From assembly GCA_900315765.1 (NCBI GenBank), contig ONAK01000074.1, forward strand, positions 1 through 37,000: DNA of 37,000 nucleotides. Reading direction: 5' to 3'. The notes below the pieces were generated by a model. The model ran no database searches, was not told where the DNA came from, and saw nothing but the letters and a program-made list of their open reading frames with translations. Below are positions 2,797-37,000 of this stretch, piece by piece (position 1 is the stretch's first letter; each line of letters starts with the position of its first letter). The translations under genes were made by a program, and so were the position numbers. The DNA is from an uncultured Prevotella sp. GTDB taxonomy: Bacteria; Bacteroidota; Bacteroidia; Bacteroidales; Bacteroidaceae.

Positions 2797-3341
2797 GCAT
2801 CTTGTTTGTGGCTACACTTATATATATATATAATAGGTGGATGGCAATAGTAAAACGCCGTGAGGCCGAACAACTATACAATCCTATTCGCAAGGTCTTG
2901 GAGGAATCAGAAGATCCTCGTCAGCTGCAGACACGTATCCAGAATATCCTGGATAATCAGGAGCGTTACAAAAAGAGTGTAACAAAGAGCGTGGAAGCCG
3001 ATCGTGAGGAAGTCATGAAGAGCACCAAACCATTTATGGAACGCGTTATGGAGATCATGGAAAACCACTATATGGATTCTGAATTCGGCGTTCAGGAGTT
3101 CTGCGATGCATTAGGCATGAGCAGATCTGTTGCAAGCAAGCATTTAAATGCTGAAGCAGGTCTGCCTGTTGGACAATTCATTCGTAATTACCGTCTGAAC
3201 ATGGCCAAAGAGATGTTATCATCCAAGAGCGGCAATCGCAACATTACAGAAATAGCATACGCCGTAGGCTTTAATGATCCCAAATACTTCACACGTTGCT
3301 TTACCAAATTGTTTGGCACTAATCCTAGTTCTTGGTCTTGA
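2787..3341 (+). CDS. Propeller/AraC sensor-regulator, segment 4: membrane helix and AraC-type HTH (broken gene)
   Basis: Frame 3 gives a membrane helix (Leu/Ile/Val-rich, about 2781-2835), a charged linker with heptad-like spacing and a C-terminal AraC-type double HTH. The first HTH contains Phe-Cys-Asp-Ala-Leu-Gly-Met-Ser-Arg-Ser. The second contains Ile-Thr-Glu-Ile-Ala-Tyr-Ala-Val-Gly-Phe-Asn-Asp, then Tyr-Phe-Thr-Arg-Cys-Phe, which is the AraC signature. The real frame runs back to about 2769, before the first ATG at 2787. The segment could still be made on its own as a short membrane-anchored DNA-binding protein if translation restarts at 2787, but that is speculation. It lies 184 bp upstream of susC on the same strand, and the repeats in that gap are its likely targets. 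Confidence 0.8.
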   Translation: MLLSILFVATLIYIYNRWMAIVKRREAEQLYNPIRKVLEESEDPRQLQTRIQNILDNQERYKKSVTKSVEADREEVMKSTKPFMERVMEIMENHYMDSEFGVQEFCDALGMSRSVASKHLNAEAGLPVGQFIRNYRLNMAKEMLSSKSGNRNITEIAYAVGFNDPKYFTRCFTKLFGTNPSSWS

Positions 3342-6741: not shown

Positions 6742-6778
6742 AGAATAGATTAATTGAAAATTTAAAACTTGAAGAAAT

Positions 6779-8521: not shown

Positions 8522-8566
8522 TTTTAAATAAGAGTAAAAATAAGAACTAAGAAAAAGTATACAATT

Positions 8567-10480: not shown

Positions 10481-10488
10481 TTGAATTA

Positions 10489-12231: not shown

Positions 12232-12235
12232 CATT

Positions 12236-13288: not shown

Positions 13289-13297
13289 TATTTAAAA

Positions 13298-18947: not shown

Positions 18948-18984
18948 TATTCACTAATCACTATTCACTAATCACTATTCACTT
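18943..18984 (-). repeat. 7-bp tandem repeat filling the purL-CHR gap
   Basis: Six heptamers run without interruption: TTCACTA, TTCACTA, ATCACTA, TTCACTA, ATCACTA, TTCACTT (plus strand). The tract reaches into the purL stop codon (18983-18985) at one end and contains the GTG start of the first CHR gene (18945-18947) at the other. It is the whole intergenic spacer. Confidence 0.8.
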
Positions 18985-20533: not shown

Positions 20534-22631
20534 GGTCGCAGCAGAAATCTGAGAGAGCCTTCACGCCCTCATACAAACGGGCATCCTCACCCTCCTGAGA
20601 GCGGCAAGGCCACATCCAGTTGGCAGAGAGACTCAGTGAGTCCATACCCTCGGCCAATGGAGCCCATACAATATTGGTAAGAGCCTCAGCTACAGAAAGT
20701 ACAGAACCAGCAGCAGGATTAGCCAAACCGGCCTGTGGAGCGTGTCCGAGAGCGGTAGCGATACCCTTCACGCCACGATAGTCGAGTGCTACAACACCAC
20801 AGTCGCTCAGTGGCAACTGGATTTCGCCCTGACACTGCTGACGGGCAATCTTACCTGTTACCGATCGGTCTACCTTGTTAGTCAACCAATCCTTACAAGC
20901 TACAGCCTCAAGCTGAAGCACGCGGTCGAGGTACTCGTTAATCTTATCCTGACTATAAGTTACATCCTGATAATGACGCTCTACAGTATTATCCTTCATG
21001 ATGGTCTTTGGTGAGTGACCGAACATCTGAGCCACATCCAAATCGAATGGCTTAACACCATCGCCCTGCTTGAACGAGAAGTGGGCATCGCCTGTTGTCT
21101 CACCTACTACATACAGTGGGGCACGCTCGCGCTCAGCAATCTTACGTACATGTTCGATATGCTTCTCGTCGATGAGCAGTCCCATACGCTCCTGACTCTC
21201 GTTGGCAATGATTTCCTTAGAGCTCAGAGTCTTGTCGCCGATAGGCAGCTTGGTCATATCAATCTCACCACCGCACTCCTCAACGAGCTCAGAGAGACAG
21301 TTGAGGTGACCGGCTGAACCATGGTCGTGAATAGAAACAACTGGGTTTACGTCCTCCTCACAGAGTGCACGAACCAAGTTATAGGCACGCTTCTGCATCT
21401 CAGGGTTAGCACGCTGAACGGCATTCAACTCGATACCATTGCTGTAGCGACCAGTATCTACCGACGATACAGAACCGCCACCCAGACCGATGCGGTAGTT
21501 GTCACCACCTACAACGACCACCTTATTACCCTTCTGGGGCTCCTTCTTCAGACAGTCGCGCTTGGTGCCATAACCTACGCCACCAGCCAGCATAATCACC
21601 TTATCGTAAGCATACTTGGTATCATTTGGCTCTTGGTGCTCAAAGGTAAGCACAGAACCACAAATCAGTGGCTGACCGAACTTATTACCGAAGTCAGAAG
21701 CACCGTTCGAAGCCTTAATCAGAATCTGCTCTGGTGTCTGATACAGCCACTGACGAACGGGCAGGATGTTCTCCCAATCGCGAGTCAGCTTATCATCGTC
21801 AGTCAGACGTGGGTAAGCAGTCATATAAACAGCCGTACCAGCGATAGGCCATGAACCTACGCCACCACCCATACGGTCGCGAATCTCAGTCTCAGCCTTC
21901 AGCGAGATAACACTCTCGATATCCTTTACCTGGAAGTAATCGCTGGTGCTCTGATCCTTTGGAGCAAACTGCTCTACAACAGGGCCCTGTGCGAAAGCAA
22001 CATTATCCTTATAGGCCGAGAGTATCTTGTTGGGGTTCTCCTGTGTGGTCTTCTTAATCATAGCAAAGAGTGAACTTTCCATCTCCTTGCCATCGATGAT
22101 GAATGTTCCACCGAATATCTTATGACGGCAGTGCTCAGAGTTAATCTGGGCGAAACCGAAGATCTCTGAATCAGTCAGCGGGCGACCATTCTGTTTCTCC
22201 AGTCCGTGCAGGTACTCGATTTCCTCTGGACTGAGGGCCAAGCCCTCCTGCTCGTTGTATTCCTCCAGATTGTCCACATACTTGATGGGCTCAGGCTTGA
22301 TGTTGATGGTAAAGATATCCTGATTCAATCCATCATACATACGCTGCAGCATCTCATCATGCTCAGCATCCTTGCTGGCTGCGGGGAAGTACTCTTCTAT
22401 ACGCAAAATGCCGCTGAGTCCCATATTCTGAGTTATCTCAACGGCATTTGTTGACCAAGGGGTCACCATTTCACGGCGTGGACCGACATAGAATCCATCT
22501 AACGTTTGTGAATCCAACATGGTTGCACCGCCGTAAAGCCAGTTTAACTCATTGATTTCCTGTTCACTAAGTGAGTGATCAACCTCAGTGGCAATCACCG
22601 ATTTCTGTGGGGTCTGAAAGAAGCAAATCAT
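20514..22631 (-). CDS. purL: Phosphoribosylformylglycinamidine synthase, N-terminal part (frame-shifted purL with internal loss)
   Basis: This is the first 705 residues of PurL, starting at ATG 22631 just inside a good promoter. The N-terminal domain, the linker with Gln-Ile-Asn-Ser-Glu-His-Cys-Arg-His-Lys and the first synthetase half are clear. Also clear are Asn-Gly-Ala-Ser-Asp-Phe-Gly-Asn-Lys-Phe-Gly-Gln-Pro, the glycine-rich Asp-Asn-Tyr-Arg-Ile-Gly-Leu-Gly-Gly-Gly, and Ser-Leu-Ser-Ala-Asn-Trp-Met-Trp-Pro. Near 21888 the text passes straight from Leu-Lys-Ala-Glu-Thr to Glu-Ile-Arg-Asp-Arg. The near-invariant stretch His-Asn-x-Pro-Thr ... Gly-Ala-Ala-Thr-Gly-x-Gly-Gly is missing, about 19 residues in frame. 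The frame is then lost at about 20525, where Pro-Thr-Gly-Lys-Asp-Ser is expected. As written, the product should be inactive. Confidence 0.9.
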   Translation of the reverse strand: MICFFQTPQKSVIATEVDHSLSEQEINELNWLYGGATMLDSQTLDGFYVGPRREMVTPWSTNAVEITQNMGLSGILRIEEYFPAASKDAEHDEMLQRMYDGLNQDIFTINIKPEPIKYVDNLEEYNEQEGLALSPEEIEYLHGLEKQNGRPLTDSEIFGFAQINSEHCRHKIFGGTFIIDGKEMESSLFAMIKKTTQENPNKILSAYKDNVAFAQGPVVEQFAPKDQSTSDYFQVKDIESVISLKAETEIRDRMGGGVGSWPIAGTAVYMTAYPRLTDDDKLTRDWENILPVRQWLYQTPEQILIKASNGASDFGNKFGQPLICGSVLTFEHQEPNDTKYAYDKVIMLAGGVGYGTKRDCLKKEPQKGNKVVVVGGDNYRIGLGGGSVSSVDTGRYSNGIELNAVQRANPEMQKRAYNLVRALCEEDVNPVVSIHDHGSAGHLNCLSELVEECGGEIDMTKLPIGDKTLSSKEIIANESQERMGLLIDEKHIEHVRKIAERERAPLYVVGETTGDAHFSFKQGDGVKPFDLDVAQMFGHSPKTIMKDNTVERHYQDVTYSQDKINEYLDRVLQLEAVACKDWLTNKVDRSVTGKIARQQCQGEIQLPLSDCGVVALDYRGVKGIATALGHAPQAGLANPAAGSVLSVAEALTNIVWAPLAEGMDSLSLSANWMWPCRSQEGEDARLYEGVKALSDFCCDLHTAVS

Positions 22632-22789: not shown

Positions 22790-24328
22790 ATGAAGAAACT
22801 ATTACTCATTGCCATGATTGTCATGTCGCAATCCATATTGGCAGACGGTATTAGTGTGATTAGTTTCAAATTATTGGAGACTGACCTTACTGCCAATACC
22901 AGAGGAACAGAAAGACGTGATCAAAATGGTGACAAGGCAGCACTAATCAAGATTGTGACACCCGAAAGAGGATTCCGCTACGACGGAGGTTCGCTTGGAA
23001 TCGTAGGGACAGAAGAGAAAACTGGCGAAATATGGCTATATGTGCCACCGCGAGCACAGAAACTTACCATATCACATCAAGTGTTTGGTGTAATGCGCGA
23101 CTATTACTACCCCACATCTATCCAGGGTGGACGTACATACGAGATGTTACTTGACATCGGTACAGGTCGCTATGTTACCATCACCACATCACAAGCAAAG
23201 AGTGACGTAACCCTAGATGGAGAATATCTGGGCAAATCACCTATCTACAATAAGTACTTGACCTACGGACGTCATGCTGTATTTGCCCAAAACGACATCT
23301 ACGAGGGAAATGACACAATTATAGTGGCAACTACCGATGCGAAGGAGACCAAGATGGCCAACATAGAGATGCAAAATATGAGCGATCACTTCGGCGAAGT
23401 ATATATCTCTGTAGAAAACAATGCAGAAATCTGGTTCAACGGCCAACAGGTGGGTACAGGCAAATGGTTTACACAGCTACGTGAAGGTTCGTACACTATA
23501 GAAACCCGCAAGTCAGATTGTGACCCTATGAGAACAAACTTCAGAGTAGAACCCAAGAGATATAACCAAATTACTGCTTATCCGCCATCACCCCACACTG
23601 GTATATTAAACATCTTTACTCGACCGCGCAATGTCACAGCTCTTCTTAACGGAATGGAGCGTATCGACCTGACCCAAATTGCTGTTCTGCCTGTTGGAAC
23701 ATACCAACTGGACATCAGTAAGCATGGCTATATCGGCACCACCAATGAGTATACCATTAAGCACAACATTACTACTACAGATACCATAAATCTTGAAAAA
23801 ATAGAGTATATCAAGCATTTTGCATTTTATTTCGGAGCGGGCTTTAACTACCGTCAGATGTATGGTGTCAGTGCGATGGCCGGCTGCATTCTCTGGAATA
23901 TCGATCTACAGGCCAGCTACACTTTAGGTCTTGGCTCATCTGATCCCGTCAGATGGTATACTGCTGATGACAATGTTGCTTATATGAGCAGCATTACCTA
24001 CAAAAGATCTACATTTGCCGCTAAACTAGGTTATCAGATAAGGCTCACTGAGCGACTAGGCATAACACCTCAGGTTGGTTATCATATTGAACAATTAACA
24101 GGTACAGTTATTGATGGCACCAACCTGTACGGTGATAAAGCATCAGCCAGTTGCGTCTCTGCAAGTGCTAAATTCATATATGCCCCCCTTCGACACTTTC
24201 AACTCTTTATCGCGCCTGAATTTTCTCTCGGCCTAACCAAGGATGACGAATTCAATCGTATAGATGCCGCCAGCGACATTGCTGCCGGTGGATTCATGAT
24301 TAGCGCAGGCGCCTTCCTTAGTTTCTAA
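22790..24328 (+). CDS. PEGA-domain surface protein with C-terminal beta-barrel
   Basis: This protein of 512 residues has a signal peptide (about 1-18) and an N-terminal beta domain (about 25-120) with Asp-Gln-Asn-Gly-Asp-Lys-Ala-Ala-Leu-Ile-Lys-Ile, which often precedes PEGA repeats in Bacteroidota. Two or three PEGA-like repeats follow (about 125-190, 205-260 and 265-335), seen as Val-Thr-Leu-Asp-Gly-Glu-Tyr-Leu-Gly-Lys-Ser-Pro and Ile-Trp-Phe-Asn-Gly-Gln-Gln-Val-Gly-Thr-Gly. The last 170 residues are amphipathic strands ending in Leu-Ser-Phe, an outer-membrane barrel pattern. It likely anchors PEGA domains to the outer membrane. It is the first gene of the surface operon. The precise role is unknown. 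Confidence 0.78.
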   Translation: MKKLLLIAMIVMSQSILADGISVISFKLLETDLTANTRGTERRDQNGDKAALIKIVTPERGFRYDGGSLGIVGTEEKTGEIWLYVPPRAQKLTISHQVFGVMRDYYYPTSIQGGRTYEMLLDIGTGRYVTITTSQAKSDVTLDGEYLGKSPIYNKYLTYGRHAVFAQNDIYEGNDTIIVATTDAKETKMANIEMQNMSDHFGEVYISVENNAEIWFNGQQVGTGKWFTQLREGSYTIETRKSDCDPMRTNFRVEPKRYNQITAYPPSPHTGILNIFTRPRNVTALLNGMERIDLTQIAVLPVGTYQLDISKHGYIGTTNEYTIKHNITTTDTINLEKIEYIKHFAFYFGAGFNYRQMYGVSAMAGCILWNIDLQASYTLGLGSSDPVRWYTADDNVAYMSSITYKRSTFAAKLGYQIRLTERLGITPQVGYHIEQLTGTVIDGTNLYGDKASASCVSASAKFIYAPLRHFQLFIAPEFSLGLTKDDEFNRIDAASDIAAGGFMISAGAFLSF

Positions 24329-24358: not shown

Positions 24359-25993
24359 ATGAAAGCAAAGGTATTCAACAAGATATTGACTTCCCTTTCG
24401 TTACTTATGATTCTTACTGCTTGTAAGGGCGAATTTGCAAACGAAGTAATCCCTGCCAGAGAAATGCTAAGGGTACTAGACGGCACTATTGAAATACAAT
24501 CCGACGTCGAGGAAACCATTGTAAACGTCACCGCCGATTGTCATTGGAAAGTGGATAGTCTTGACTCTGGAGATTTTGGTAGCAATCTGACAATTCGACC
24601 ACGCGAAGGCGTAGGCGACGGAGTGCTTGTTATCGGTAATGACCAGAACACAACCAATGCAGACCGTACAGCACTAATAGTACTGGCTTCTGATGGCGGT
24701 TTGCGACAAAAAGTTACGATAAGACAGACAGGAAAGGGAGACGGTATCAACCTTTCGCGCGGATCATTCACATTCGATACAGAGCCTACTGAGGCACAGT
24801 TCTTAACTATCAGCAGTAACACCCAGTGGAAAATAGAGATTCCAGAAGGAGTTAACTGGGTAACACTCGACAAGACAAGCGGTGAAAGTGGCGAGAGCCT
24901 CATCCAAATCAAGGCCCAGCCTTCGTCTACAGATGCGCTTCGTTCCACTTCTTTGTCAGTATTATATGGCGAATCCTTTAATAAAGTAGAAGAGTTTACT
25001 ATTTCGCAAAAAGGTCTTACTAATTTATATCTCGAAACAGTCGAAAGCGTTGGTCGCTTTGAGTCGACTGGTGGCGAAACCGTGATTCATGTAGAAAGCA
25101 ATGCTCAGTGGTTTGCATTCATACCTTCATCGATATCTTGGTTGCACTTTGATGCTGAACTCGACTCGTTAACCTCTGAAGGAACTGCTTCTAGGATTGG
25201 CAACGGTGATTTGCATATCAAGTGTGATGAAAATAGCACCTCACGCGACCGCACCACAGGTGTGGTCATTGTGGCTGGCAGCCGAAGTCCCAAGGAAGTT
25301 GTTGTAACTATGGAACAAGTGAGAAACGGCTCAATATTGCCATTGGAAACCTCAGTCAGCCTAAGCGAACTGAGCGTATCATACGACTTAGCCAATTTCC
25401 TTATAAGTGTTGTATCAGAAGAGGTTGTTGGAGATTTCGGACTCGTTTACAGCACCAATGCCCATCCTACAGTATCCGAAGGTCGGAAGATAGTTACTGG
25501 TAACGGAGGTTTGTCTTCTGCGATGGCTTATAAGTTAGAAGGGCTTGAAACCAACACCACTTATTATGTTCGTGCTTTTGTGGAGAAGAAATCTACTCAA
25601 GAAACTCTATATAGCGACGAATTGACAGTTACCACATTAGCCTACTCTGCAATGATAGGAGAAGTAAGGTCGCTTTACGTAGGTGATACTTATGCCGACA
25701 TGCGATTCAGTTATGTGGCCGACGAAGAGATAATCGATTGTGGCTTTGTATATAGCGGCACTAATGAGACTCCTACTCGCGAAAACGACACTATGGTAAC
25801 TATCGGTCATAGCGGAATGGGAGGCAACGTAATGACAACTATTGCTGATCTTGAGAAGTCTACCACCTATTATATACGTGGTTATCTGCTCACCAAGCAA
25901 GGCATCATATATAGCCCGAATGTGGTTACTATCAAGACTTCAAAGACGAGCAAAGAGCCTGGAGAGAGCAGCAATCCCGACCCACAATTCTAA
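24359..25993 (+). CDS. BACON-domain lipoprotein with FN3-like C-terminal domains
   Basis: This lipoprotein of 544 residues has lipobox Leu-Thr-Ala-Cys (Cys22). Three BACON-like domains lie at about residues 42-125, 130-218 and 225-322. Each has a central Trp (Cys-His-Trp-Lys, Thr-Gln-Trp-Lys, Ala-Gln-Trp-Phe), an Asn/Ser-x-x-Arg turn and a closing Gln strand (Ile-Arg-Gln, Ile-Ser-Gln, Met-Glu-Gln). Two FN3-like domains follow at about 328-428 and 430-530, each ending in Thr-Thr-Tyr-Tyr-[Val/Ile]-Arg. BACON domains are often linked to glycan or mucin binding in Bacteroidota, but that role is not shown here. It lies between the PEGA gene and the giant gene in one transcription unit. Confidence 0.82.
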   Translation: MKAKVFNKILTSLSLLMILTACKGEFANEVIPAREMLRVLDGTIEIQSDVEETIVNVTADCHWKVDSLDSGDFGSNLTIRPREGVGDGVLVIGNDQNTTNADRTALIVLASDGGLRQKVTIRQTGKGDGINLSRGSFTFDTEPTEAQFLTISSNTQWKIEIPEGVNWVTLDKTSGESGESLIQIKAQPSSTDALRSTSLSVLYGESFNKVEEFTISQKGLTNLYLETVESVGRFESTGGETVIHVESNAQWFAFIPSSISWLHFDAELDSLTSEGTASRIGNGDLHIKCDENSTSRDRTTGVVIVAGSRSPKEVVVTMEQVRNGSILPLETSVSLSELSVSYDLANFLISVVSEEVVGDFGLVYSTNAHPTVSEGRKIVTGNGGLSSAMAYKLEGLETNTTYYVRAFVEKKSTQETLYSDELTVTTLAYSAMIGEVRSLYVGDTYADMRFSYVADEEIIDCGFVYSGTNETPTRENDTMVTIGHSGMGGNVMTTIADLEKSTTYYIRGYLLTKQGIIYSPNVVTIKTSKTSKEPGESSNPDPQF

Positions 25994-26011: not shown

Positions 26012-29000
26012 ATGAAGAAGCTAATAATAAGTATCACTGCGTTGCTGGGCGTTATGGTGCCCAGCATCACAATGGCGCAAGGAACAGGCCCAGAGCCATA
26101 TGCGGTACTAAGCGAAAGCAATACAAAGCTTACGTTCTACTACAATGATAATAAACCTAGCGAAGATTGGAATAGTTATGCCTCAACTATTACATCAGTT
26201 GTTTTCGACGAATCATTTGCTAACTGTACTTCATTGGAAAGTACGGCGTATTGGTTTTATGACTGTACCAATTTGGCCAGTATTACAGGTATAGAACACC
26301 TCAACACTGCCTCTGTGAAGAACATGAATAGCATGTTCTATCGTTGTTCCAAACTGACAAGTCTTGACGTGAGCGGCTTCAATACAAGCAGTGCAACAAA
26401 CATGAGTTTTATGTTCTTTAACTGTTCACGTCTAGAAACCCTTGAAGTGAGTAACTTCGATACTTCTAGTGCAAAGAACATAAGCGGCATGTTCTATAAC
26501 TGTTCTGGTCTGACGAGTCTTGACGTGAGTCATTTCAATACAGCCAATGTGACAAACATGAGCGGCATGTTCAGAGATTGTAGAAATCTGTCGAGTCTTG
26601 ACGTTAGCGACTTCAATACGACCAATGTGACAGACATGAGTTCTATGTTCTATTGGTGTTCCGGTCTGACGAGCCTAGATGTGAGTAGCTTTAACACAGA
26701 CAAAGTAACAAAAATAAGCGCCATGTTCAATGGCTGTTCAAGTCTGACAACCCTTAACTTGAGTAACTTCAATACATCCAATGTGTCAGACCTGAGCGAA
26801 ATGTTCCAAGGTTGTTTAGGGTTAACAAGTCTTGACTTGAGTAGCTTCAATACAGACAATGTAACGAACATGAAAAGTATGTTCTATAATTGTTCTAGCC
26901 TGGCAAGCCTTGACTTGAGTGGTTTCAATACAGCAAAAGTGACAACCATGGAATATATGTTCGGAGGTTGTTCTAGCATGACGAGTCTTGACTTGAGTAA
27001 CTTCGTTACAAACAATGTTACGAACATGAGCGGTATGTTCTCTGGCTGTTCTGGACTAACGAGTCTCAACATAAGCAGTTTCAACACAGGCAGTGTAAAA
27101 GCCATGTATGAAATGTTTAAAGACTGTTCCAATCTGCCGAGCATTAACTTGAGCAACTTCAATACGGAGAATGTAACAAACATGTATTGGATGTTTGGTA
27201 ACTGTTCTAGTCTAACAACCATTAACTTAAGTAGCTTCAATACGACCAATGTGATAGAAATGACTTCTATGTTCAATGGCTGTTCAGGGCTGACAAGCAT
27301 TGACGTAAGTAATTTCAATACGGCCAATGTAACGAACATGGGCGGCTTATTCTCTGGTTGTTCTGGGCTGACGAGTCTCAATTTGAGCAATTTCAATACA
27401 AACAATGTGACGAACATGGCCGTTTTGTTCAATGGCTGTTCTGGCTTGACCATCCTTGATTTGAATAATTTCAATACGGCCAATGTAACGAACATGAGCA
27501 GTATGTTCAATGGCTGTTCTGGGCTGACGGAGCTTGATGTTAGCAATTTCAATACGGCCAATGTAAAGGACATGACCAAAATGTTCTATGATTGTACTAG
27601 TCTAACATCCATTTATGTAGATGACAATTGGAGTACAGAGGCTGTCACATCAAGTAACAGCATGTTCTATAACTGTTCAAACCTCGTCGGTGGAAAAGGA
27701 ACTACCTATATTTCCCCAAACTATAATGCAACCTATGCCCGTATCGACGACCCAGATAATGGTAATCCTGGTTACTTGACAGACGTTGCAGACAAAGGCA
27801 AAGTTCTGGAGCCCTACGCAGTGCTAACGGATAATGATGACGAGATAACAACTGATGCAGGCACTATTAAAGGTAAGACACTCACTTTCTACTACGATAA
27901 GCAGAAAGAGACACGCAGCGGTATGGATCTGACGTACACCCCGTGGCGTGATGATGAAACCAAGGAAACAATCACCAAGGTGGTGTTCGACGCATCGTTT
28001 GCTGATTGCACCAGCCTGACAACAACTGATAGTTGGTTCAACGAGTGTTCTAATCTGGCAACCATCGAGAACATCAGCAACCTGAAAACCGAACATGTCA
28101 CCAACATGAGTGCGATGTTCAGAATGTGTACCTCACTTACCAGTATCGACTTCGAAAACTTCAATACGAGCAATGCTACAACTTTAGACAACATGTTCTT
28201 TGGTTGTACAGGTTTGACCAACCTCGACTTGAGTCATTTCAATACTGCAAATGTAGAAGACATGCACAGCATGTTCGCAGGCTGTACCAAATTGACAACG
28301 CTTGACCTAAGCCATTTCGAAACGAGTAGCCTAACAAACATACAGGGAATGTTTTCAGGCTGTGAGTTATTAGAGACTGTTGACCTCAGCAGTTGGAACA
28401 CCGCAAGTGTTACAGACGTCCGATTCCTGTTTAATTACTGTACAAGTCTAACGACAGTATATGTTGGTTCCACATGGGACCTATCGAGCGTAACGACAGA
28501 AATGGGTAGCTACGTGTTTAACAACTGTAACAACATCGGAGGAGGACAAGGCACCTCATATAGTAGCAGCCATATCGACCACACCTACGCCCGTATCGAC
28601 GATCCAGATAATGGAAATCCAGGTTACTTTACAGACGTTGCAGATAAATATAAGGTTCCAGAGCCTTACGCCGTGCTGAAGGAGAATGGAGATGAAATAA
28701 CAACTGATGATGGAACTATTACAGGCAAGACACTTACATTCTACTACGATTCTAAGAAAAAGGATAGCGATTTTGAAATTGTACCATTCTCTTCTGAAAG
28801 TGACAGAGGGTGGGATAGCGAAAGAGGTTACATTACAGAGGTTGAATTCGATGCATCCTTTGCCAATTGCAAGACTTTGACAAGCACCGCTTATTGGTTC
28901 AGTTATTGCGCAAACTTAAAAAAGATCACACACATTGAGTACTTAGTAACTGATGATGTGGAAAATATGGCGGCAATGTTTAGGGGTTGTTCAGATCTTA

Positions 29001-32000
29001 CTGACCTTGATTTTAGCCACTTTAATACAGCTAATGTAAAGGATATGAGCGAATTGTTCCATACAGGTCCCAAAAGTCTCGATTTGAGAAGCTTCGATAC
29101 TCGCAATGTAACTGACATGAGCGCTATGTTTTACTATTCTAGTGTTACGAGCCTTGATTTAAGCAGTTTCGATACTCGTAATGTAGAAAATATGAATGGT
29201 ATGTTCATACAGTGTTCTAGTCTGAGCACTCTTGATTTGAGCAATTTCGAGACAGAAAACGTAAAAAACATGGCTTCTATGTTCTATCGTTGTACTGGTC
29301 TGACAAGCCTTAATGTGAGCAACTTCAATACTGCCAACGTGACAACCATGAAAGACATGTTTAAAGGGTGTTCTCATCTGACGACTCTTGATTTGGGCAG
29401 TTTCAATACAGGGAACGTGAAAGACATGTCAGAAATGTTCTGGGATTGTGGTCGTTTGAAAACCATCTTTGTCAGCGAATGGAATACATCTGCTTTAGAA
29501 GAAGGGAAAGACAAACTTATGTTTGAGTTCAGCACAAGTCTTGTTGGCGGGCAAGGAACGAAATATTCTGCAAGCTATACCGATGCTACTTATGCCCGCA
29601 TTGACAATCTCCCGGATAATCCAGGCTATTTTACTCGAAGTGGAGATGAGCCTTATAAGGCCCCAGAAGCCTATGCCGTATTGAGCGACAATAATACCGT
29701 ACTTACATTCTATTACAACAAGAATAAGGGAGAAGACGCCTTTGATGTCAAATCGTTTAATTCAATAACTGATAGAGGATGGAATGACGTAAGTAGTAAT
29801 ATTACCAAGGTTGTATTCGATGCCTCATTCGCCGAATGTACCACGCTGACCAGCACTGCATATTGGTTTGAAGGGTTCTCTAGTCTGACAACATTTGAAG
29901 GCTCCAATCTCGTTACATCTAGAGTGACGAACATGATCGCAATGTTCTCTGGTTGCTCTAGTCTGACAAGCCTTGACGTAAGTAGCTTCAATACGGTCAA
30001 TGTGACGAACATGACATCCATGTTCCAAGACTGTTCTAATCTACAGACGATATCTGTAGGCAGAGACTGGATTACAAAAAAATCAACGAATGGTAACAAT
30101 ATGTTCTCAGGTTGTACTAGTCTCGTTGGTGGCGCAGGCACAAGCTTCAATTCTAGTGCTGTAAATCATTATTACGCTCATGTTGATGGTGGTGCTGATA
30201 ATCCCGGCTATTTTACACTTAGTGCTGATGCACCTACGAAGTCACCAGAACCATATGCATTGTTGAGCGATGACGGCAAAGTACTATCCATCTACTACGA
30301 TGATATGAAGAGCAGCCATATTATCTTAAATATGATCAGTATCGATGAAGGATTTATGTATAATAACATCGGGTGGCCATACGGAACAAGCCAAACTGTG
30401 ACTACCGTAATATTCGATCCATCGTTTGCTGATTGCCGGCTGAAGAATCTTAATAGTATGTTCAGAGGATTTACCAAGCTCTCAAATATAAATGGCATTG
30501 AATATTTGAATACCAGCGAAGTGACGGATATGTATCTTATGTTTGCCTACTGTTATGAGCTTAAAAATATTGACTTGAGCAACTTCAACACATCAAATGC
30601 TGTAAGAATGTATGGCATGTTCGAGTATTGTACTTCACTCACGGCTCTCGATTTGAGCAGTTTCAATACATCAAAGCTTCGTGATATATCCTGTATGTTC
30701 TATGGTGATAATGCACTTAAGACTATATATGTAGGTAGTGGTTGGAATACATCTCAGATTATCAACCCCGATAGTCTTGATATGGTATTTAAACGATGCG
30801 AAAATCTAGTTGGCGGAAAAGGTACTATGTATGATGAAAGCCGATATGAGTATAGTGATACCGACGGAGCCTATGCCCGTATCGATGGTAGTTCGGGTAA
30901 GCCTGGCTACATGACAGATATAAATACGCGTAGTGCTTATGCAGTATTAAGCGATGAAAATACTGTGATGACGTTATATTACGATGGTCTGAAAGGTGTA
31001 CGCGGCGGAATAAATATTGGTGATTGGTATAGCTTTACTACAAGTGTTAGATCTGTTGTCTTTGATGAATCGTTTGCAAGCTATACTTCATTAACAAGTA
31101 CAAGTTGTTGGTTTTCTGGATTTAATTATTTGGAAAGTATTACAGGTATAGAGCACCTCAAGACAGACAATGTGATTGATATGAGTGATATGTTCCATTA
31201 CTGTTCTGTTTTGACGAGTCTTGACCTAAGCGGATTTAATACGAGCAATGTGACGGACATGAGTGAGATGTTTAATAAATGTTACGGTCTAACCAGTCTT
31301 GACGTGAGCAACTTCAACACAGCCAATGTGACGGACATGAGAAATATGTTTTGTGGCTGTATGAGCTTGTCTAGTCTTGACGTGAGCAACTTCAACACGG
31401 GCAATGTGACAGACATGGGGTATATGTTCTTTGGCTGTTCGAGCCTGACGAGCTTAGACTTGAGCGGGTTCAATACAACCAATGTGACGAACATGGGGTA
31501 TATGTTCGATGATTGCTATAATCTGTCGAGTCTAGACGTAAGTGGATTCAATACGAACAATGTAACGGACATGGGATGGATGTTCAGTGATTGCTCTAGA
31601 CTGACGAGTCTTGACATGAGTAATTTCAGCACGATCAATGTGACGAATATGACTGGTTTGTTTTCTGGCTGTTCAAGTCTGACAAGTCTTGACCTGAGTA
31701 GTTTCAACACTGCTAATGTAACGAGCATGACTCAGATGTTCTCTAATTGCGATAATCTGAGAACAATCTTTGTAGGAGAAGATTGGGGAACCACAAAGGT
31801 AAACTCCAGCCTGCACATGTTTTATCAATGTAAAACACTCGTTGGTGGAGCTGGAACTGTTTATGACGGAGGTCATATAGATAAAGCCTATGCCCGCATT
31901 GATGGTGGGGCTAATAGTTCTACTCCAGGCTACTTTACCCGGAGTGGTGAAGAGCCATACAGATTCCCAGAAGCATATGCCGTGCTGACGGAAAATGATG

Positions 32001-35000
32001 ATTACGTGACAACTGATGAGGGTACACTAAAACAAAAGACGCTTACCTTCTACTACGACTCCCATAAAGAGAGTAGAGGTGGTATGAGCGTTGGTCCGTT
32101 TGCTTTAGATTCAGATATGGCATGGTTTAATCAGACGAAAAGCATTACAACCGTTGTCTTCGACAATTCGTTTGCCAACTGCACCACATTGACAAGCACT
32201 GCTCATTGGTTTGAAAGATGTTCAAACATATCATCAATCTTAGGTATAGATAATCTTAAGACGGATAAAGTTACGAACATGGCCAGGATGTTCGAATACT
32301 GTTCTAGTTTGACGAGCCTTGACTTGAGTGGTTTCAAGACAGACAATGTGACAGACATGAGCTGCATGTTTGGCAATTGTTCTGGTCTGACGAGCCTTAA
32401 CATAAGTAGTTTCAACACAGAGAATGTGACGGACATGATTAGTATGTTCCATGGCTGTTCTGGCTTGACTAACCTTGATGTAACTAATTTCAAGACAGAC
32501 AATGTGACGGATATGAATGGTATGTTCTCCGACTGTTCTAGTTTGAAGAGCCTTGATTTGAGCGGATTTAACACAGAGAGTGTAACGGGTATGCAGGCTA
32601 TGTTCAGTGGTTGTTCTAATTTGGGAACCATCTATGTAGGAGATAAATGGAATGTTTCTAGTGTTACGTATCGTTTATTTGTGTTCGAAGATTGTACTGC
32701 TCTAGTTGGCGGTGCAGGAACTCCTTATGATCCAAATCATACAGACACAGAGTATGCCCGCATTGATGGTGGACCAGACAGTGATACTCCAGGCTACTTC
32801 GCCGTGTTGACGGATAATGAGCATGTCATTTATATTAATGAAGTTCCAATTAACGGTAAAACCCTTACCTTCTATTATGATAAGAATAAAACGGAGAGAG
32901 AAGGTATGAGTGTTGGACCGTTTGAGACTTGGACAGATAGAGGATGGAATGATGATCGAGAGTCTATTACATCAGTAGAATTCGACACGTCATTTTCAAA
33001 ATGTACCACTTTGAAGAGTACGGCTTATTGGTTTGAAGGTTGCACAAACCTGACATTATTTAGTGGTCTTGACAACCTAAAGACGGATAATGTGGAAGAC
33101 ATGACATGTATGTTTGCTAACTGTTTTTATCTACGCTATCTTGACATTAGCGGATTCAATACAGGAAAAGTAACATCGATGATGGGTATGTTCTATGATT
33201 GTAATTTTTTGGAAACCATCTTTGTCGGTGAAAAATGGAATACGGATAACCTCACAAATCTGGGGGGAAATTCCATGTTTTCTTTTTGTGATCGGCTTGT
33301 TGGTGGTCAGGGAACTAAATATGCTGACAACTACATTAATGATCATACATATGCTCACATCGACGAAGGCACTTCGAATCCAGGATACTTTACAGATATT
33401 AAATCGCCATATCCGTATGCTGTGATAAGTGACGAAAATACCAAAGTAACATTCTATTACGATGCAAAGAGAAAGGAGAGAAATGGTATATGGTTATTGT
33501 ATTGGCATAAGTATAGTGAAAGTATTACTCAAGTTATCTTCGAAAGTTCGTTTGCTGAATACAAGGATCTTCCAGATCTAGAATGTTGGTTTGCTGGTTG
33601 TTCAAAATTGACATCTATCGAAGGCTTTAGCAATTTGAATACAGAGAAAATAACAAACATGCGAGGCATGTTCATAAATTGTTCAAGTCTAACGACACTT
33701 GATTTGAGTAGCTTAAATACCTCTAATGTGACGACTATGGCTCAAATGTTCCAGGGCTGTTCTAATCTGGAAAGCCTTAACATAAGTTTCGAAAATACAG
33801 GCGAGGTAATAACTATGCAAAACATGTTCGGAGACTGTTCCAAGCTTAAGAATCTTAATTTAAGCAACTTTAACACCGCTAAGTTAGAGGTTATGAGCAA
33901 TCTGTTCTCGGGCTGTTCTAATCTGGAAAGCCTTGACATAAGTTTCGAAAATACAGGTAAGGTAATATATATGCAAAACGTGTTCGAAGGCTGTTCCAAG
34001 CTTAAGAGTCTTGATTTAAGCAGCTTTAACACAGAAAATGTAACGCATATGTCGGGCATGTTTAGTGAATGTTCCAGTCTGACGGATCTTGATCTGAGCA
34101 ATTTCATGACAAACAAAGTAGAGGACATGAGCAATATGTTCAATAATTGTTCAAGCTTAGCAACCATTTATGTAAGTAGCCTATGGAATACCGAGGCTGT
34201 AACGGAAAGCACAGACATGTTCTCCGGTTGTACCAGTCTTGTTGGTGGAGCAGGTACTACTTATGCTGATGCATATAAAGATGTAGCCTACGCCCATATT
34301 GATGATACATCTAATCCTGGTTACCTGACAGATGCAAACTCGCGAGAGCCATACGCCGTGCTGAGTGACAATGATGATGAAGTGACTGTTGATGGAATCA
34401 TTGTTAATGGAAAAACGCTTACCTTCTATTACGATAATAATAGAGGAGAAGATGGAATGGATATTGGACCGTTTAACTATTTTGATACACGAGGTTGGAA
34501 TGACGCTGATTCAACTATTACATCTGTCGTTTTTGATGCTTCATTTACCAGTTGCAATTCATTAAAAAGTACAGCTTATTGGTTCCACGGATGTAAAAAT
34601 CTTACTACAATCACAGGCATAGAGAACCTCAAAACAGACAATGTGACGGACATGAACCGGATGTTCTGTTACTGTTCAAAACTTACGAGCCTTGATGTAA
34701 GCGGATTAAACACAGCCAATGTGACAACAATGTACGATATGTTCTCTGGTTGTTCTAGTTTGACGAGCCTTGACCTAAGTGGATTCAACACGAGCAAAGT
34801 GACAAACATGGGATATATGTTTAATGAATGTTCTAGTCTGACGACCCTTGACATAAGCGGATTCAATACGGACAATGTGACTGACATGAATTTTATGTTC
34901 TATGGATGTTTTAGCCTGACGAGCCTTGACGTGAGCGGATTCAATACGGAGAATGTAACAAACATGTATGGTATGTTCTATGACTGTTCAGGTTTGACGA

Positions 35001-36034
35001 GCCTTGACGTAAGTGGATTCAAGACGGACAATGTGACATACATGGGGTGGATGTTCACAAGCTGTTCTAGTTTAGCAAGCCTTGACGTAAGTGGATTCAA
35101 GACGGACAATGTGACTGACATGAATTTTATGTTCTATGGATGTTCCAGCCTGACGAGCCTTGACGTGAGCGGATTCAATACGGAGAATGTAACGGGAATG
35201 GATTGTATGTTTTTTGACTGTTCTAGCTTGACGAATCTTGACGTGAGCGGATTCAATACGGACAATGTGACAGACATGGGGTTTATGTTCTCAGGCTGTT
35301 CTAGTTTGACCAGCCTTGACGTGAGTGGGTTCAAGACAGACGAAGTGACAAGCATGAAGTGGATGTTCCATGGATGTTCCAGTCTGACGAGCCTTGACGT
35401 GAGTGGTTTTAATACGGAGAATGTAGCGAGCATGGTTGGTATGTTCGAAGGCTGTTCCTGTTTGACGAGCCTTGACGTGAGCGGATTCAATACGGAGAAT
35501 GTAACGGGAATGGAATGTATGTTTTTTGACTGTTCTAGCTTGACGAATCTTGACGTGAGTGGATTCAATACGACCAATGTGACAGACATACATAGGATGT
35601 TCTATGGATGTTCTAGTCTGACAAGTCTTGACTTGAGCAGTTTCAATATATCAAAAGTGGAATATGATGCAGACAACGATTGTTATGGAATAGAATATAT
35701 GTTCTCTGGTTGTTCTGCTTTAACTACCATTTATGTGGGTGAGGGCTGGAATATCGAGAATTTGACTGAGAGCACTGATGTATTCAAAGATTGTACTGCT
35801 CTAGTTGGCGGTGCAGGAACTCCTTATGATCCAAATCATACAGACACAGAGTATGCACGTATCGATGACCCAGATAACAGTAAGCCTGGCTATTTCACCA
35901 AAGCTGGCAAGTTGGGCGATGTGAATGGTGATGGCTTTGTGAACATCGCGGATGCTCAGGCTATGGTTAGTTACATCTTGGGTACATACGAAGGTACATT
36001 CAATGTGGGTAGTAAACATTACGCTCGAGGATGA
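26012..36034 (+). CDS. Giant BspA-like surface protein: ten DUF285 repeat blocks and a dockerin half-repeat
   Basis: This secreted protein of 3340 residues has a signal peptide (about 1-22). Ten blocks begin near 26093, 27809, 28661, 29666, 30248, 30932, 31970, 32801, 33410 and 34346. Each block has a header (Tyr-Ala-Val-Leu, Leu-Thr-Phe-Tyr-Tyr-Asp, Val-Phe-Asp-x-Ser-Phe-Ala, Tyr-Trp-Phe), then 3 to 18 copies of a 26-residue repeat of the DUF285/BspA lipoprotein type (Leu-Thr-Ser-Leu-Asp-Val-Ser-x-Phe-Asn-Thr ... Met-Phe-x-x-Cys-Ser). It closes with Leu-Val-Gly-Gly-x-Gly-Thr ... Tyr-Ala-Arg-Ile-Asp ... Pro-Gly-Tyr-Phe. About 78 repeats were counted by eye. At 35911-36000 a dockerin half-repeat (Gly-Asp-Val-Asn-Gly-Asp-Gly) follows, then the frame ends. 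BspA relatives are adhesins; that role is inferred. The C-terminal domain continues in frame 3 from about 36009. Confidence 0.93.
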   Translation: MKKLIISITALLGVMVPSITMAQGTGPEPYAVLSESNTKLTFYYNDNKPSEDWNSYASTITSVVFDESFANCTSLESTAYWFYDCTNLASITGIEHLNTASVKNMNSMFYRCSKLTSLDVSGFNTSSATNMSFMFFNCSRLETLEVSNFDTSSAKNISGMFYNCSGLTSLDVSHFNTANVTNMSGMFRDCRNLSSLDVSDFNTTNVTDMSSMFYWCSGLTSLDVSSFNTDKVTKISAMFNGCSSLTTLNLSNFNTSNVSDLSEMFQGCLGLTSLDLSSFNTDNVTNMKSMFYNCSSLASLDLSGFNTAKVTTMEYMFGGCSSMTSLDLSNFVTNNVTNMSGMFSGCSGLTSLNISSFNTGSVKAMYEMFKDCSNLPSINLSNFNTENVTNMYWMFGNCSSLTTINLSSFNTTNVIEMTSMFNGCSGLTSIDVSNFNTANVTNMGGLFSGCSGLTSLNLSNFNTNNVTNMAVLFNGCSGLTILDLNNFNTANVTNMSSMFNGCSGLTELDVSNFNTANVKDMTKMFYDCTSLTSIYVDDNWSTEAVTSSNSMFYNCSNLVGGKGTTYISPNYNATYARIDDPDNGNPGYLTDVADKGKVLEPYAVLTDNDDEITTDAGTIKGKTLTFYYDKQKETRSGMDLTYTPWRDDETKETITKVVFDASFADCTSLTTTDSWFNECSNLATIENISNLKTEHVTNMSAMFRMCTSLTSIDFENFNTSNATTLDNMFFGCTGLTNLDLSHFNTANVEDMHSMFAGCTKLTTLDLSHFETSSLTNIQGMFSGCELLETVDLSSWNTASVTDVRFLFNYCTSLTTVYVGSTWDLSSVTTEMGSYVFNNCNNIGGGQGTSYSSSHIDHTYARIDDPDNGNPGYFTDVADKYKVPEPYAVLKENGDEITTDDGTITGKTLTFYYDSKKKDSDFEIVPFSSESDRGWDSERGYITEVEFDASFANCKTLTSTAYWFSYCANLKKITHIEYLVTDDVENMAAMFRGCSDLTDLDFSHFNTANVKDMSELFHTGPKSLDLRSFDTRNVTDMSAMFYYSSVTSLDLSSFDTRNVENMNGMFIQCSSLSTLDLSNFETENVKNMASMFYRCTGLTSLNVSNFNTANVTTMKDMFKGCSHLTTLDLGSFNTGNVKDMSEMFWDCGRLKTIFVSEWNTSALEEGKDKLMFEFSTSLVGGQGTKYSASYTDATYARIDNLPDNPGYFTRSGDEPYKAPEAYAVLSDNNTVLTFYYNKNKGEDAFDVKSFNSITDRGWNDVSSNITKVVFDASFAECTTLTSTAYWFEGFSSLTTFEGSNLVTSRVTNMIAMFSGCSSLTSLDVSSFNTVNVTNMTSMFQDCSNLQTISVGRDWITKKSTNGNNMFSGCTSLVGGAGTSFNSSAVNHYYAHVDGGADNPGYFTLSADAPTKSPEPYALLSDDGKVLSIYYDDMKSSHIILNMISIDEGFMYNNIGWPYGTSQTVTTVIFDPSFADCRLKNLNSMFRGFTKLSNINGIEYLNTSEVTDMYLMFAYCYELKNIDLSNFNTSNAVRMYGMFEYCTSLTALDLSSFNTSKLRDISCMFYGDNALKTIYVGSGWNTSQIINPDSLDMVFKRCENLVGGKGTMYDESRYEYSDTDGAYARIDGSSGKPGYMTDINTRSAYAVLSDENTVMTLYYDGLKGVRGGINIGDWYSFTTSVRSVVFDESFASYTSLTSTSCWFSGFNYLESITGIEHLKTDNVIDMSDMFHYCSVLTSLDLSGFNTSNVTDMSEMFNKCYGLTSLDVSNFNTANVTDMRNMFCGCMSLSSLDVSNFNTGNVTDMGYMFFGCSSLTSLDLSGFNTTNVTNMGYMFDDCYNLSSLDVSGFNTNNVTDMGWMFSDCSRLTSLDMSNFSTINVTNMTGLFSGCSSLTSLDLSSFNTANVTSMTQMFSNCDNLRTIFVGEDWGTTKVNSSLHMFYQCKTLVGGAGTVYDGGHIDKAYARIDGGANSSTPGYFTRSGEEPYRFPEAYAVLTENDDYVTTDEGTLKQKTLTFYYDSHKESRGGMSVGPFALDSDMAWFNQTKSITTVVFDNSFANCTTLTSTAHWFERCSNISSILGIDNLKTDKVTNMARMFEYCSSLTSLDLSGFKTDNVTDMSCMFGNCSGLTSLNISSFNTENVTDMISMFHGCSGLTNLDVTNFKTDNVTDMNGMFSDCSSLKSLDLSGFNTESVTGMQAMFSGCSNLGTIYVGDKWNVSSVTYRLFVFEDCTALVGGAGTPYDPNHTDTEYARIDGGPDSDTPGYFAVLTDNEHVIYINEVPINGKTLTFYYDKNKTEREGMSVGPFETWTDRGWNDDRESITSVEFDTSFSKCTTLKSTAYWFEGCTNLTLFSGLDNLKTDNVEDMTCMFANCFYLRYLDISGFNTGKVTSMMGMFYDCNFLETIFVGEKWNTDNLTNLGGNSMFSFCDRLVGGQGTKYADNYINDHTYAHIDEGTSNPGYFTDIKSPYPYAVISDENTKVTFYYDAKRKERNGIWLLYWHKYSESITQVIFESSFAEYKDLPDLECWFAGCSKLTSIEGFSNLNTEKITNMRGMFINCSSLTTLDLSSLNTSNVTTMAQMFQGCSNLESLNISFENTGEVITMQNMFGDCSKLKNLNLSNFNTAKLEVMSNLFSGCSNLESLDISFENTGKVIYMQNVFEGCSKLKSLDLSSFNTENVTHMSGMFSECSSLTDLDLSNFMTNKVEDMSNMFNNCSSLATIYVSSLWNTEAVTESTDMFSGCTSLVGGAGTTYADAYKDVAYAHIDDTSNPGYLTDANSREPYAVLSDNDDEVTVDGIIVNGKTLTFYYDNNRGEDGMDIGPFNYFDTRGWNDADSTITSVVFDASFTSCNSLKSTAYWFHGCKNLTTITGIENLKTDNVTDMNRMFCYCSKLTSLDVSGLNTANVTTMYDMFSGCSSLTSLDLSGFNTSKVTNMGYMFNECSSLTTLDISGFNTDNVTDMNFMFYGCFSLTSLDVSGFNTENVTNMYGMFYDCSGLTSLDVSGFKTDNVTYMGWMFTSCSSLASLDVSGFKTDNVTDMNFMFYGCSSLTSLDVSGFNTENVTGMDCMFFDCSSLTNLDVSGFNTDNVTDMGFMFSGCSSLTSLDVSGFKTDEVTSMKWMFHGCSSLTSLDVSGFNTENVASMVGMFEGCSCLTSLDVSGFNTENVTGMECMFFDCSSLTNLDVSGFNTTNVTDIHRMFYGCSSLTSLDLSSFNISKVEYDADNDCYGIEYMFSGCSALTTIYVGEGWNIENLTESTDVFKDCTALVGGAGTPYDPNHTDTEYARIDDPDNSKPGYFTKAGKLGDVNGDGFVNIADAQAMVSYILGTYEGTFNVGSKHYARG
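26093..35898 (+). repeat. 78-bp coding repeat array in ten blocks (DUF285 solenoid)
   Basis: The 26-residue unit gives a 78-bp DNA period through most of 9.8 kb. Unit counts per block are about 18, 6, 6, 3, 4, 9, 6, 3, 8 and 15. Most units carry one Cys at the same place. Units in block 10 are the most alike at DNA level, which points to recent unit duplication there. Block 3 has two shortened units (24-25 residues) that also lack the Cys. Confidence 0.85.
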
Positions 36035-36560
36035 CACCAATAATCCTAGCGGAAGCAGAGCCTTTACTCGTGGCGATAACAGCCAGGCTGAGATGATCAG
36101 ACTGAAAGCAGAAGCCAACAACATCTATCTGAGTATCGACGAGGCAGAACGATTCACTGCCTTCCAGTTCGATATAACCTTGCCAGAAGGTGTAGAACTT
36201 ACTGGCGTGGAATTGGCTGCTGGTACAACTGATCATATGTTGAAGTTCGTCAAGCACAGAGGTAACAGGTATCGCGTAGTCGGACTGTCGTTTACCAACG
36301 AATTGCTGGCAACTTCCGATGGTAAGTTGATTATGCTTCAGGTTTCTGACGCAGTTATTGAAAACGACGTAAGTATAGATAATGTACTCTTTGTGACACC
36401 TAGCAACAAGGTGGTTACACACATCGGCGGAATAGAATATAACCAGCAGGCTGAGGATGACACCATCTACAACCTGAGCGGTCAGAAGCTGAATGTAAAG
36501 AGACAGCAACTGAGTAAGGGAGTTTACATTATTAACCACAAAAAGGTGATAATTAAATAA
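36003..36560 (+). CDS. C-terminal part of the giant protein in another frame: cohesin-like domain and sorting-type tail
   Basis: From about 36009, frame 3 reads Val-Val-Asn-Ile-Thr-Leu-Glu-Asp, a plausible end of a second dockerin repeat. A beta domain follows with Phe-Thr-Ala-Phe-Gln-Phe-Asp-Ile-Thr-Leu-Pro-Glu-Gly-Val, a cohesin-like signature common in Prevotella secreted proteins. The last 30 residues (Ile-Tyr-Asn-Leu-Ser-Gly-Gln-Lys ... Gly-Val-Tyr-Ile-Ile-Asn) match the tail type seen on the GH43 enzyme at 10489-12231. Most likely this is the end of the preceding gene, cut off by loss of about 20-25 codons with a frame change near 36001-36009. The open frame runs back to 35952, but that part overlaps the dockerin out of frame. 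The stop TAA overlaps the next ATG. Confidence 0.75.
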   Translation: MWVVNITLEDDTNNPSGSRAFTRGDNSQAEMIRLKAEANNIYLSIDEAERFTAFQFDITLPEGVELTGVELAAGTTDHMLKFVKHRGNRYRVVGLSFTNELLATSDGKLIMLQVSDAVIENDVSIDNVLFVTPSNKVVTHIGGIEYNQQAEDDTIYNLSGQKLNVKRQQLSKGVYIINHKKVIIK

Positions 36561-37000
36561 TGAAAGCTATGCGTAAAAGAATAATGTGGTTTGCCATCTT
36601 ACTATTGGCAATATGTAATAAGATAGCGGCAGAGGATAGGGTGTACGTCAGTGACTTCAGTATCTCCCCAGGAGAGACGAGGCAGGTCAGCGTGATGTTG
36701 GATAACGAAGACGCCTATGTAGGTTTCCAGTTCGATGTGTATCTGCCTGATGGATTCACCATAACGTCTTGCTCCAAGAGCGACCGAATACCCGATGGTA
36801 CCACTGTATTGGGTAATCAGCGGACTGACGATACCGGCAGTTTCTATCGAGTTATAGGCGCTTCATTGACGGGTAATGCGATAACGGGCACGAGCGGTGC
36901 TATTGCCACACTCACCATCACGGCGGATGCAAGTGTCGCTCTCAACGATTACACAGGCTATCTCCGCAATATAAAGGTGTCGAAAGCCAACGGCACTGGT
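36560..37000 (+). CDS. Secreted cohesin-like domain protein (3' end outside window)
   Basis: The ATG at 36560 shares one base with the stop of the preceding frame (TAATG), which is translational coupling. The first 147 residues are seen. They start with a signal peptide (about 5-24, ending Ile-Ala-Ala-Glu), then a beta-sandwich with Ile-Ser-Pro-Gly-Glu-Thr, Tyr-Val-Gly-Phe-Gln-Phe-Asp-Val-Tyr-Leu-Pro-Asp-Gly-Phe and Ile-Ala-Thr-Leu-Thr-Ile. This is the same cohesin-like pattern found at the C-terminus of the giant protein. The gene runs off the window, so later domains are unknown. Its position right after a dockerin-bearing protein makes binding between the two a possibility, but no interface can be read. 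Confidence 0.8.
   Translation, partial: MKAMRKRIMWFAILLLAICNKIAAEDRVYVSDFSISPGETRQVSVMLDNEDAYVGFQFDVYLPDGFTITSCSKSDRIPDGTTVLGNQRTDDTGSFYRVIGASLTGNAITGTSGAIATLTITADASVALNDYTGYLRNIKVSKANGTG

Follow-up and report, generated by a model that had tools for sequence, protein, structure and literature searches.

Giant DUF285/PARCEL solenoid genes and a candidate cohesin-dockerin link between them in an uncultured Prevotella

We analysed a stretch of 37,000 bp from an uncultured Prevotella sp. (assembly GCA_900315765.1, contig ONAK01000074.1), referred to below as the window. It is one whole contig (C128) of a 3.45-Mb genome that consists of 140 contigs and is about 94% complete. Near its end lies a giant gene, gene A, which encodes a ten-block DUF285/PARCEL solenoid running into an incomplete type I dockerin (Doc). 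It is followed by the start of a second giant gene, gene B, with a cohesin-like (Coh) domain, CohB, at its N-terminus. Homologous domains, the order of the genes and the joint occurrence of Doc and Coh within and between genomes lead us to favour, by a small measure, a reading in which A and B are two giant surface solenoids of leucine-rich-repeat-like DUF285/PARCEL blocks. In this reading the dockerin of A, loaded with calcium, would bind CohB of B and so give one surface complex. A broader proposal, which we hold tentatively and at slightly under an even chance, is that Prevotella and other Bacteroidota own a cohesin-dockerin system whose cohesins are too diverged for standard models. Many adjacent Doc-then-Coh pairs, with Coh often tail-anchored, would belong to it; it would display proteases, nucleases, a lyase and giant solenoid adhesins at the surface, and in the clade of the window it would clip two PARCEL giants together.

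As assembled, gene A is an open reading frame (ORF) of 3340 amino acids (aa) with an N-terminus that looks signal-peptide-like by eye. It matches DUF285 (PF03382) with E=0 in 27 stretches and carries the 26-residue repeat of the DUF285/PARCEL family. The motif MFxx[CNG]xx[LMIF] occurs 66 times, with a spacing of exactly 26 residues in 46 of 65 intervals, and 200 shuffles of the protein gave a mean of 0.4 copies and a maximum of 3. The 26-residue register thus exceeds chance. Ten xxxYY[DN] headers alternate with ten PGY[FLM] closers, header first, and on this evidence the ten-block solenoid described in the first-pass annotation is real, with a header and a closer for each block. When compared with solved structures, residues 1-596 matched leucine-rich repeat (LRR) proteins, the best being 6o60 (E=1.9e-8), as well as 4gt6, a 'Cell surface protein' (E=3.8e-8). 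TIGR02167 was matched in two homologues from genome G007, in an NCBIfam scan of those proteins.

DUF285 has been described as PARCEL (PMC2996958), and the terms dockerin, Bacteroid- and Prevotella, searched for in that paper, gave zero occurrences. Gene A resembles PARCEL/DUF285/TIGR02167 surface proteins in its repeat length and PF03382 match. It differs from the known ones in its ten blocks with headers and closers, its Bacteroidota-type tail and its link to a dockerin. In the G007 relative (L054:5697-11093; L135 is the same contig) the DUF285 blocks of giant A are interrupted in frame by a SusD-like domain, about 480 residues long. PF07980 and PF14322 score over their cut-offs there, and NF033071 reaches E=1.2e-108 but stays under its own. 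SusD was rejected as a common feature of giant A proteins, as blastp did not find it in four others.

Over its last 99 bases the window matches the reversed end of contig C129 exactly, as neighbouring contigs of an assembly graph would. The ORF that starts at 36560 therefore continues in C129 as gene B, with a 2497-aa ORF that contains 13 DUF285 stretches, five blocks and six MBG_2 stretches. The second cohesin-like domain noticed in the first pass is thus present, but it is the N-terminal module of the next gene, a second giant DUF285 protein. In one relative (L134) both genes have open frames down to their tails, A with 2399 aa and B with 2430 aa, and lie directly next to each other.

By profile comparison CohB is a putative cohesin. 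The family profile A5, built from 14 members including CohB of the window, aligned with Ruminococcus flavefaciens cohesins over 113 columns (hhalign probability 90.8%, E=1.2e-6). Four of the 14 members match Pfam Cohesin (PF00963) at E<=1, the best with 2.8e-8, and a protein of relative L141 does so over the cut-off (1.2e-9). Where the genes are intact, in relatives, the C-terminal part of protein A consists of a dockerin with two EF-hands, a further, diverged cohesin-like domain (CohA) and a tail, and gene B starts with CohB right after the signal peptide. The cassette profile A4 (its CohA part) matches A5 with a probability of 99.3% (E=2.4e-20); by this comparison CohA is a paralogue of CohB.

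The dockerins of the relatives are easily recognised. The cassettes of alignments A1 and A4 (the latter with 16 relatives) were selected because they hold both Doc and CohA, and in the A4 rows, so chosen, the dockerin is complete and PF00404-positive in 16 of 16. The A4 profile matches solved dockerins, clostridial and ruminococcal ones among them, with E 5e-9. Asp is invariant at the calcium-ligand positions in 18 divergent aligned cassettes. The order Doc, cohesin-like domain, tail recurs at the C-terminal ends of diverse relatives, and this family survey speaks against the random C-terminal add-on that would have refuted the first reading.

Across genomes, Doc and Coh tend to go together. 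The window's own genome contains one dockerin, that of gene A, which stands directly before the only CohB-type module, and CohA and CohB of the A/B pair are its sole cohesin-like domains (a third row in the A5 search is the contig-overlap piece of CohB). Genome G007 has one Doc and one CohB, and G292 and G269 have two of each. Two genomes, G276 and G153, have the upstream PEGA cluster described below and, in the stretches examined, no Doc gene; the A5 profile found no cohesin-like domain in them. A weak dockerin match in G153 (7.7e-4) speaks slightly against a strict Doc-Coh rule. In a genus survey of 299 genomes, Pfam models detected Cohesin in 77, Dockerin in 188 and both in 74. The CohB profile found its domain in 147 genomes, 141 of which have a Doc match, and 47 have Doc only. 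When strong Doc matches (E<=1e-6), compiled by hand, were considered, a Coh-like domain was present in 127 of 138 genomes with such a match compared with 20 of the 161 others. The p-values computed for these co-occurrences take no account of kinship and should not be taken as probabilities.

Gene order was counted with genes picked by a crude longest-ORF rule. The first set comprised 41 loci around homologues of the PEGA-domain protein encoded upstream of gene A: L054 and 40 stretches hand-picked from the PEGA-homologue listing (L094-L133). It includes the paralogue of the window's own genome (L113) and two near-identical copies on two contigs of one genome (L096 and L097). All six Doc genes in this set are directly followed by a Coh gene, compared with 4 of 359 other genes. 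Two of the six belong to L106, where they form a Doc/Coh cluster of its own on the opposite strand. In the window, L054, L094, L096 and L098, the gene directly after the Doc gene is gene B with an N-terminal CohB (5/5). L116 is an exception, with a CohB protein about 8 kb downstream and no dockerin match.

A second set of 59 loci was found by cassette similarity, with a search alignment (A3) narrower than A1; 24 and 25 loci were counted first and ten later. In the 24 loci from Bacteroidota and an Ignavibacteriaceae metagenome-assembled genome (MAG), Coh is next for 24 of 34 Doc genes and for 15 of 183 others. These loci are biased towards gene A, because cassette similarity was how they were found, and four of them (L134, L135, L138 and L141) repeat L094, L054, L096 and L055. 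In the 25 loci that are mostly from Firmicutes, Coh is next for 0 of 35 Doc genes; the profile is based on Bacteroidota and may miss clostridial cohesins. With the later loci added, the pooled count for Bacteroidota and the Ignavibacteriaceae MAG is 25 of 40 Doc genes. The nine best named loci (L134-L142) are from records of Prevotella, Prevotellaceae, Bacteroidales and Bacteroidaceae.

A third sample was not chosen for Coh. It consisted of 40 high-scoring dockerins, one per genome, taken in listing order; three seeds (L218, L224 and L225) were lost to the ORF rule, which left 37. Coh lies directly downstream in nine of these, upstream in three and in the same ORF in eight. Counted over all genes of these loci, Coh is next for 17 of 53 Doc genes and for 6 of 281 others. 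In five loci (L213, L217, L238, L240 and L246) the Doc protein has neither a cohesin of its own nor a tail, and the next gene encodes Coh and a tail in 353-591 aa. This arrangement fits an anchor-and-cargo scheme. The Doc-then-Coh gene order recurs in Prevotella, in other Bacteroidota and in an Ignavibacteriaceae MAG.

Other arrangements of the same domains were also seen. In three loci outside Prevotella (L153, L157 and L182) the gene directly behind that for a Doc protein encodes two or three cohesin-like domains; the Doc proteins of L157 and L182 are subtilases. Four minimal proteins of 220-246 aa (L056:6121-6858, L059:3792-4451, L060:355-1089 and L139:4278-4952) consist of hardly more than a single cohesin-like domain and a single dockerin after a signal-like start. 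Judged by this layout, such proteins could chain head to tail.

A number of observations weigh against the proposed pairing. Neither CohA nor CohB of the window matches any Pfam Cohesin model, and the cassette profile that holds CohA reaches 1.5% against true cohesins; taken alone, CohA could not be recognised as a cohesin. Among solved structures the CohB profile matches a scaffoldin cohesin best, and only at E=0.026. The co-occurrence counts are corrected neither for shared ancestry nor for incomplete MAGs. In the sample not chosen for Coh, 21 of 37 Doc genes have no Coh-like domain in their ORF or within three genes; in the ten further cassette loci Coh is next for only 2 of 15 Doc genes (L179 and L186), and in the three Bacteroidota among them for 1 of 6. 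Curated tail models match few of the relatives' cassettes at E<=0.1 (TIGR04183 5/16, PF18962 3/16). Finally, if the loss of half the dockerin described below is real, this copy would be unable to dock normally. The earlier suggestion that gene A docks to a cohesin-bearing surface protein gains support from the Doc-Coh neighbourhood and co-occurrence; many dockerins lack such a neighbour.

The same data can be read in other ways. The dockerin might bind its own chain: Doc and CohA would then act as a clasp within the protein, or as a spacer stiffened by calcium, and order the stalk by the tail, while CohB would serve another role. Doc does adjoin CohA in the 18 aligned cassettes (which were chosen for that), CohA is homologous to CohB, and 3 of the 37 sampled loci have Doc-Coh-tail proteins for which no neighbouring Coh gene was seen (L215, L249 and L251; upstream of L249 the stretch ends). 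We nevertheless find this improbable: CohA is far from true cohesins, the five sampled Doc proteins without a cohesin in their ORF still adjoin a gene for Coh and a tail, and the tracking of Doc with a neighbouring Coh gene would be left unexplained.

That tracking also bears on two further alternatives. A fibre that its dockerin ties to cohesins on other bacteria of the rumen, for instance cellulosome scaffolds of Ruminococcus, would suit the ruminant samples from which several named relatives come and the match of the cassette profile to clostridial and ruminococcal dockerins. With a cohesin-like gene right beside the dockerin gene and the two domains co-occurring inside genomes, we regard it as very unlikely. 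A dockerin added to the C-terminus by chance and without function is hardly probable at all, given the linkage of Doc with Coh genes and the invariant calcium-ligand Asp over 18 divergent cassettes, even if most PEGA-cluster loci examined have no dockerin in the cluster and over half of the sampled Doc genes have no Coh-like domain nearby.

The copy in the window is broken at the dockerin (Table 1). One Pfam scan aligned it to positions 1-23 of 57 of Dockerin_1 with 22.0 bits, under the cut-off of 22.9, and a second to positions 1-24 with 27.3 bits, over it. A match to the whole PF00404 model with two EF-hand-like repeats was not found in the window dockerin, which covers positions 1-24 of 57 only. 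In comparison with L094, the closest relative found, in which the dockerin is complete and the frame unbroken, gene A lacks exactly 53 nt, corresponding to the second EF-hand repeat, and the frame changes at the end of gene A because of this gap. CohA and the tail sit in a separate ORF (35952-36560) in a frame that differs from that of the blocks. A single gene spanning 26012-36560, 10 kb in length, was therefore rejected: there are two ORFs in different frames, and the first stops at 36034 inside the dockerin. Nor does the dockerin join the cohesin-like domain and sorting tail in the sequence as assembled, contrary to what the first-pass annotation had stated.

Other genes nearby show comparable defects. 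In purL (18983-22631) 38 nt are missing by comparison with G292, which has an intact ORF with 96% identity over the first piece. Gene B loses its frame at the end as well; there the alignment, which is noisier, puts the missing stretch at about 41 nt. A regulator-like gene (named by eye) at 614-3341 is split into four ORFs. Such gaps within about 48 kb lead us to suspect an assembly error, and the missing half of the dockerin is most likely an assembly fault. The alternative is that gene A is truly damaged in this strain, so that a real 53-nt deletion left half a dockerin and cost the protein its tail, its docking and its anchoring. The clean 53-nt gap that shifts the frame relative to L094 would be expected from such an event. 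We consider it unlikely, since a housekeeping gene, purL, lacks 38 nt on the same contig, the end of gene B is broken too and the regulator-like gene is in four pieces.

Table 1. Features of the PEGA/BACON cluster and of genes A and B in the window
Feature	Position	Strand	Evidence
PEGA-domain protein, C-terminal end like an outer-membrane beta-barrel (putative); cluster gene 1	22790..24328	+	PF08308 E=1.2e-12
Lipoprotein with BACON/Ig-like domains; cluster gene 2	24359..25993	+	PF13004 E=1.9e-11; lipobox-like LTACKG by eye
Gene A in its assembled form: N-terminus like a signal peptide, ten DUF285/PARCEL blocks, half a dockerin, stop after frame change	26012..36034	+	ORF, Pfam, motif count
DUF285 blocks 1-5	26129-27778, 27881-28630, 28733-29632, 29702-30214, 30284-30913	+	header-to-closer limits, PF03382
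DUF285 blocks 6-10	30968-31936, 32042-32800, 32864-33391, 33446-34327, 34418-35896	+	header-to-closer limits, PF03382
First EF-hand repeat of type I dockerin; second repeat gone (53 nt absent, junction near 36004)	35912..36007	+	Pfam, alignment to L094
CohA, divergent cohesin-like domain, frame unlike that of gene A's blocks	36111..36401	+	A5 profile E=9.1e-11
C-terminal sorting-tail-like segment (YNLSGQKL...KGVYIINHKKVIIK)	36444..36557	+	own tail hidden Markov model
Start of giant gene B: signal-peptide-like start and CohB module; continues in contig C129	36560..37000	+	99-bp contig overlap
CohB cohesin-like domain	36629..37000	+	A5 profile E=1.7e-46 (window row itself an A5 member)

Both giants are probably exported by a signal peptide and a C-terminal tail through the type IX system, as their predicted ends suggest. 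The signal peptide, recognised by eye, would take them across the inner membrane, and the tail would take them across the outer one. SprA, a component of the type IX system, is intact in the same genome (PF14349 E=1.8e-213, 2353-aa ORF). The tail ORF of the window gave no TIGR04183 or PF18962 match. Once outside, the dockerin of A would dock on CohB of B, and since both partners are tailed in the clade of the window, the result would be a double fibre held together by this contact. The DUF285 blocks presumably bind glycans or neighbours, and the complex may have a role in adhesion.

The two genes upstream of gene A may encode its partners at the outer membrane. A BACON-lipoprotein homologue is the next gene after the PEGA homologue in 41 of 41 loci (L054, L094-L133), and in 20 of these the gene after BACON is on the same strand and bears a sorting tail. 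Between the cluster and gene A, L096 and L098 have an additional gene of 339 aa. PEGA homologues (E<=1e-20) are present in 46 of the 299 genus genomes. Among the stretches seen, a dockerin within the PEGA cluster occurs only in the window, L054, L094, L096 and L098. Elsewhere in the window's own genome (G000:C37:48782-50317) there is a second PEGA-barrel gene, 54% identical, followed by a BACON gene and a 2280-aa tail-bearing protein. In type IX loci of the SprB/SprF kind, a giant repeat adhesin is encoded beside an outer-membrane protein gene. The present locus shares this layout but has the PEGA-barrel protein and the BACON lipoprotein in place of SprF, and the PEGA protein of the window matched no PorP/SprF model of NCBIfam at E<=0.1. 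We suggest that these two proteins act as outer-membrane partners of the A/B complex.

Dockerins of the genus sit on a range of proteins. A Pfam scan of 20 Doc-terminal proteins from the 37 sampled loci found peptidases of families C10 (6), M6 (2) and S8 (1), two endonucleases I, one rhamnogalacturonan lyase, and one protein each with CotH, Cthe_2159 and LRR. The remaining five have no listed catalytic or repeat family; DUF7619 and Omp28 matches are among these. LRR_4 and LRR_5 matches accompany dockerins in L217 and L213, and giants with LRR_5-like motifs (by our own regular expression) that end in Doc-Coh-tail also occur. The dockerin thus sits on enzymes and solenoids alike. Outside Prevotella, 28 LRR modules are listed with dockerins in R. 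flavefaciens FD-1 (PMC2930009). A dockerin on an LRR protein is thus not unusual in itself, contrary to the first impression.

The system shares with the cellulosomes and amylosomes of Ruminococcus flavefaciens and Clostridium a type I dockerin with two EF-hand repeats (in relatives) and a candidate partner with a predicted cohesin fold; with R. flavefaciens it also shares LRR-dockerin proteins (PMC2930009). A cellulosome as such was rejected because there are too few modules: the genome, about 94% complete, has one dockerin, one CohA and one CohB, no PF00963 match up to E=1 and no multi-cohesin scaffold. Unlike in the cellulosome, the dockerin is on a solenoid, the cohesin-like domain is at the start of a second solenoid and the sorting tails are of the Bacteroidota type.

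The role of dockerins in rumen Bacteroidetes has been called undefined so far (PMC7480376) or not clear (PMC7260996). Rumen Bacteroidetes MAGs were reported to have dockerins and no recognisable cohesins, with very diverged cohesins offered as one explanation (PMC7260996). The dockerins studied here are of the same domain kind and from the same group, but divergent cohesin-like domains adjoin many of their genes. Elsewhere, cohesins were found only in Firmicutes_A bins (PMC9177762), Clostridiales were sorted by dockerin and cohesin content (PMC6118326), and 200 dockerins and 18 cohesins were counted in a set of 25 MAGs, of which 13 belong to Ruminococcus or Ruminococcus_E (PMC9763041). A camel rumen study mentions cohesins in certain Bacteroidetes (PMC6071333), which limits any claim of novelty. 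Among the open-licence PMC papers listed by our searches, none was seen to describe neighbouring Doc and Coh genes as pairs in Prevotella.

The remainder of the window holds a polysaccharide utilisation locus (3526-15415) with a SusC-like receptor, SusD, a further surface protein and three GH43 enzymes. At 15472-17761 genes for a VTC domain, DUF4956 and DUF2490 stand in a row and are perhaps a polyphosphate-related cluster.

Taken as candidates, the Doc/Coh pairs each place a putative cohesin beside its putative dockerin and bear on the question of the missing cohesins raised for rumen Bacteroidetes (PMC7260996). They include those of a named strain, P. ruminicola KHT3 (L138). If the binding is true, the cohesin-dockerin contact would join two giant surface solenoids to each other, rather than enzymes onto a scaffold.

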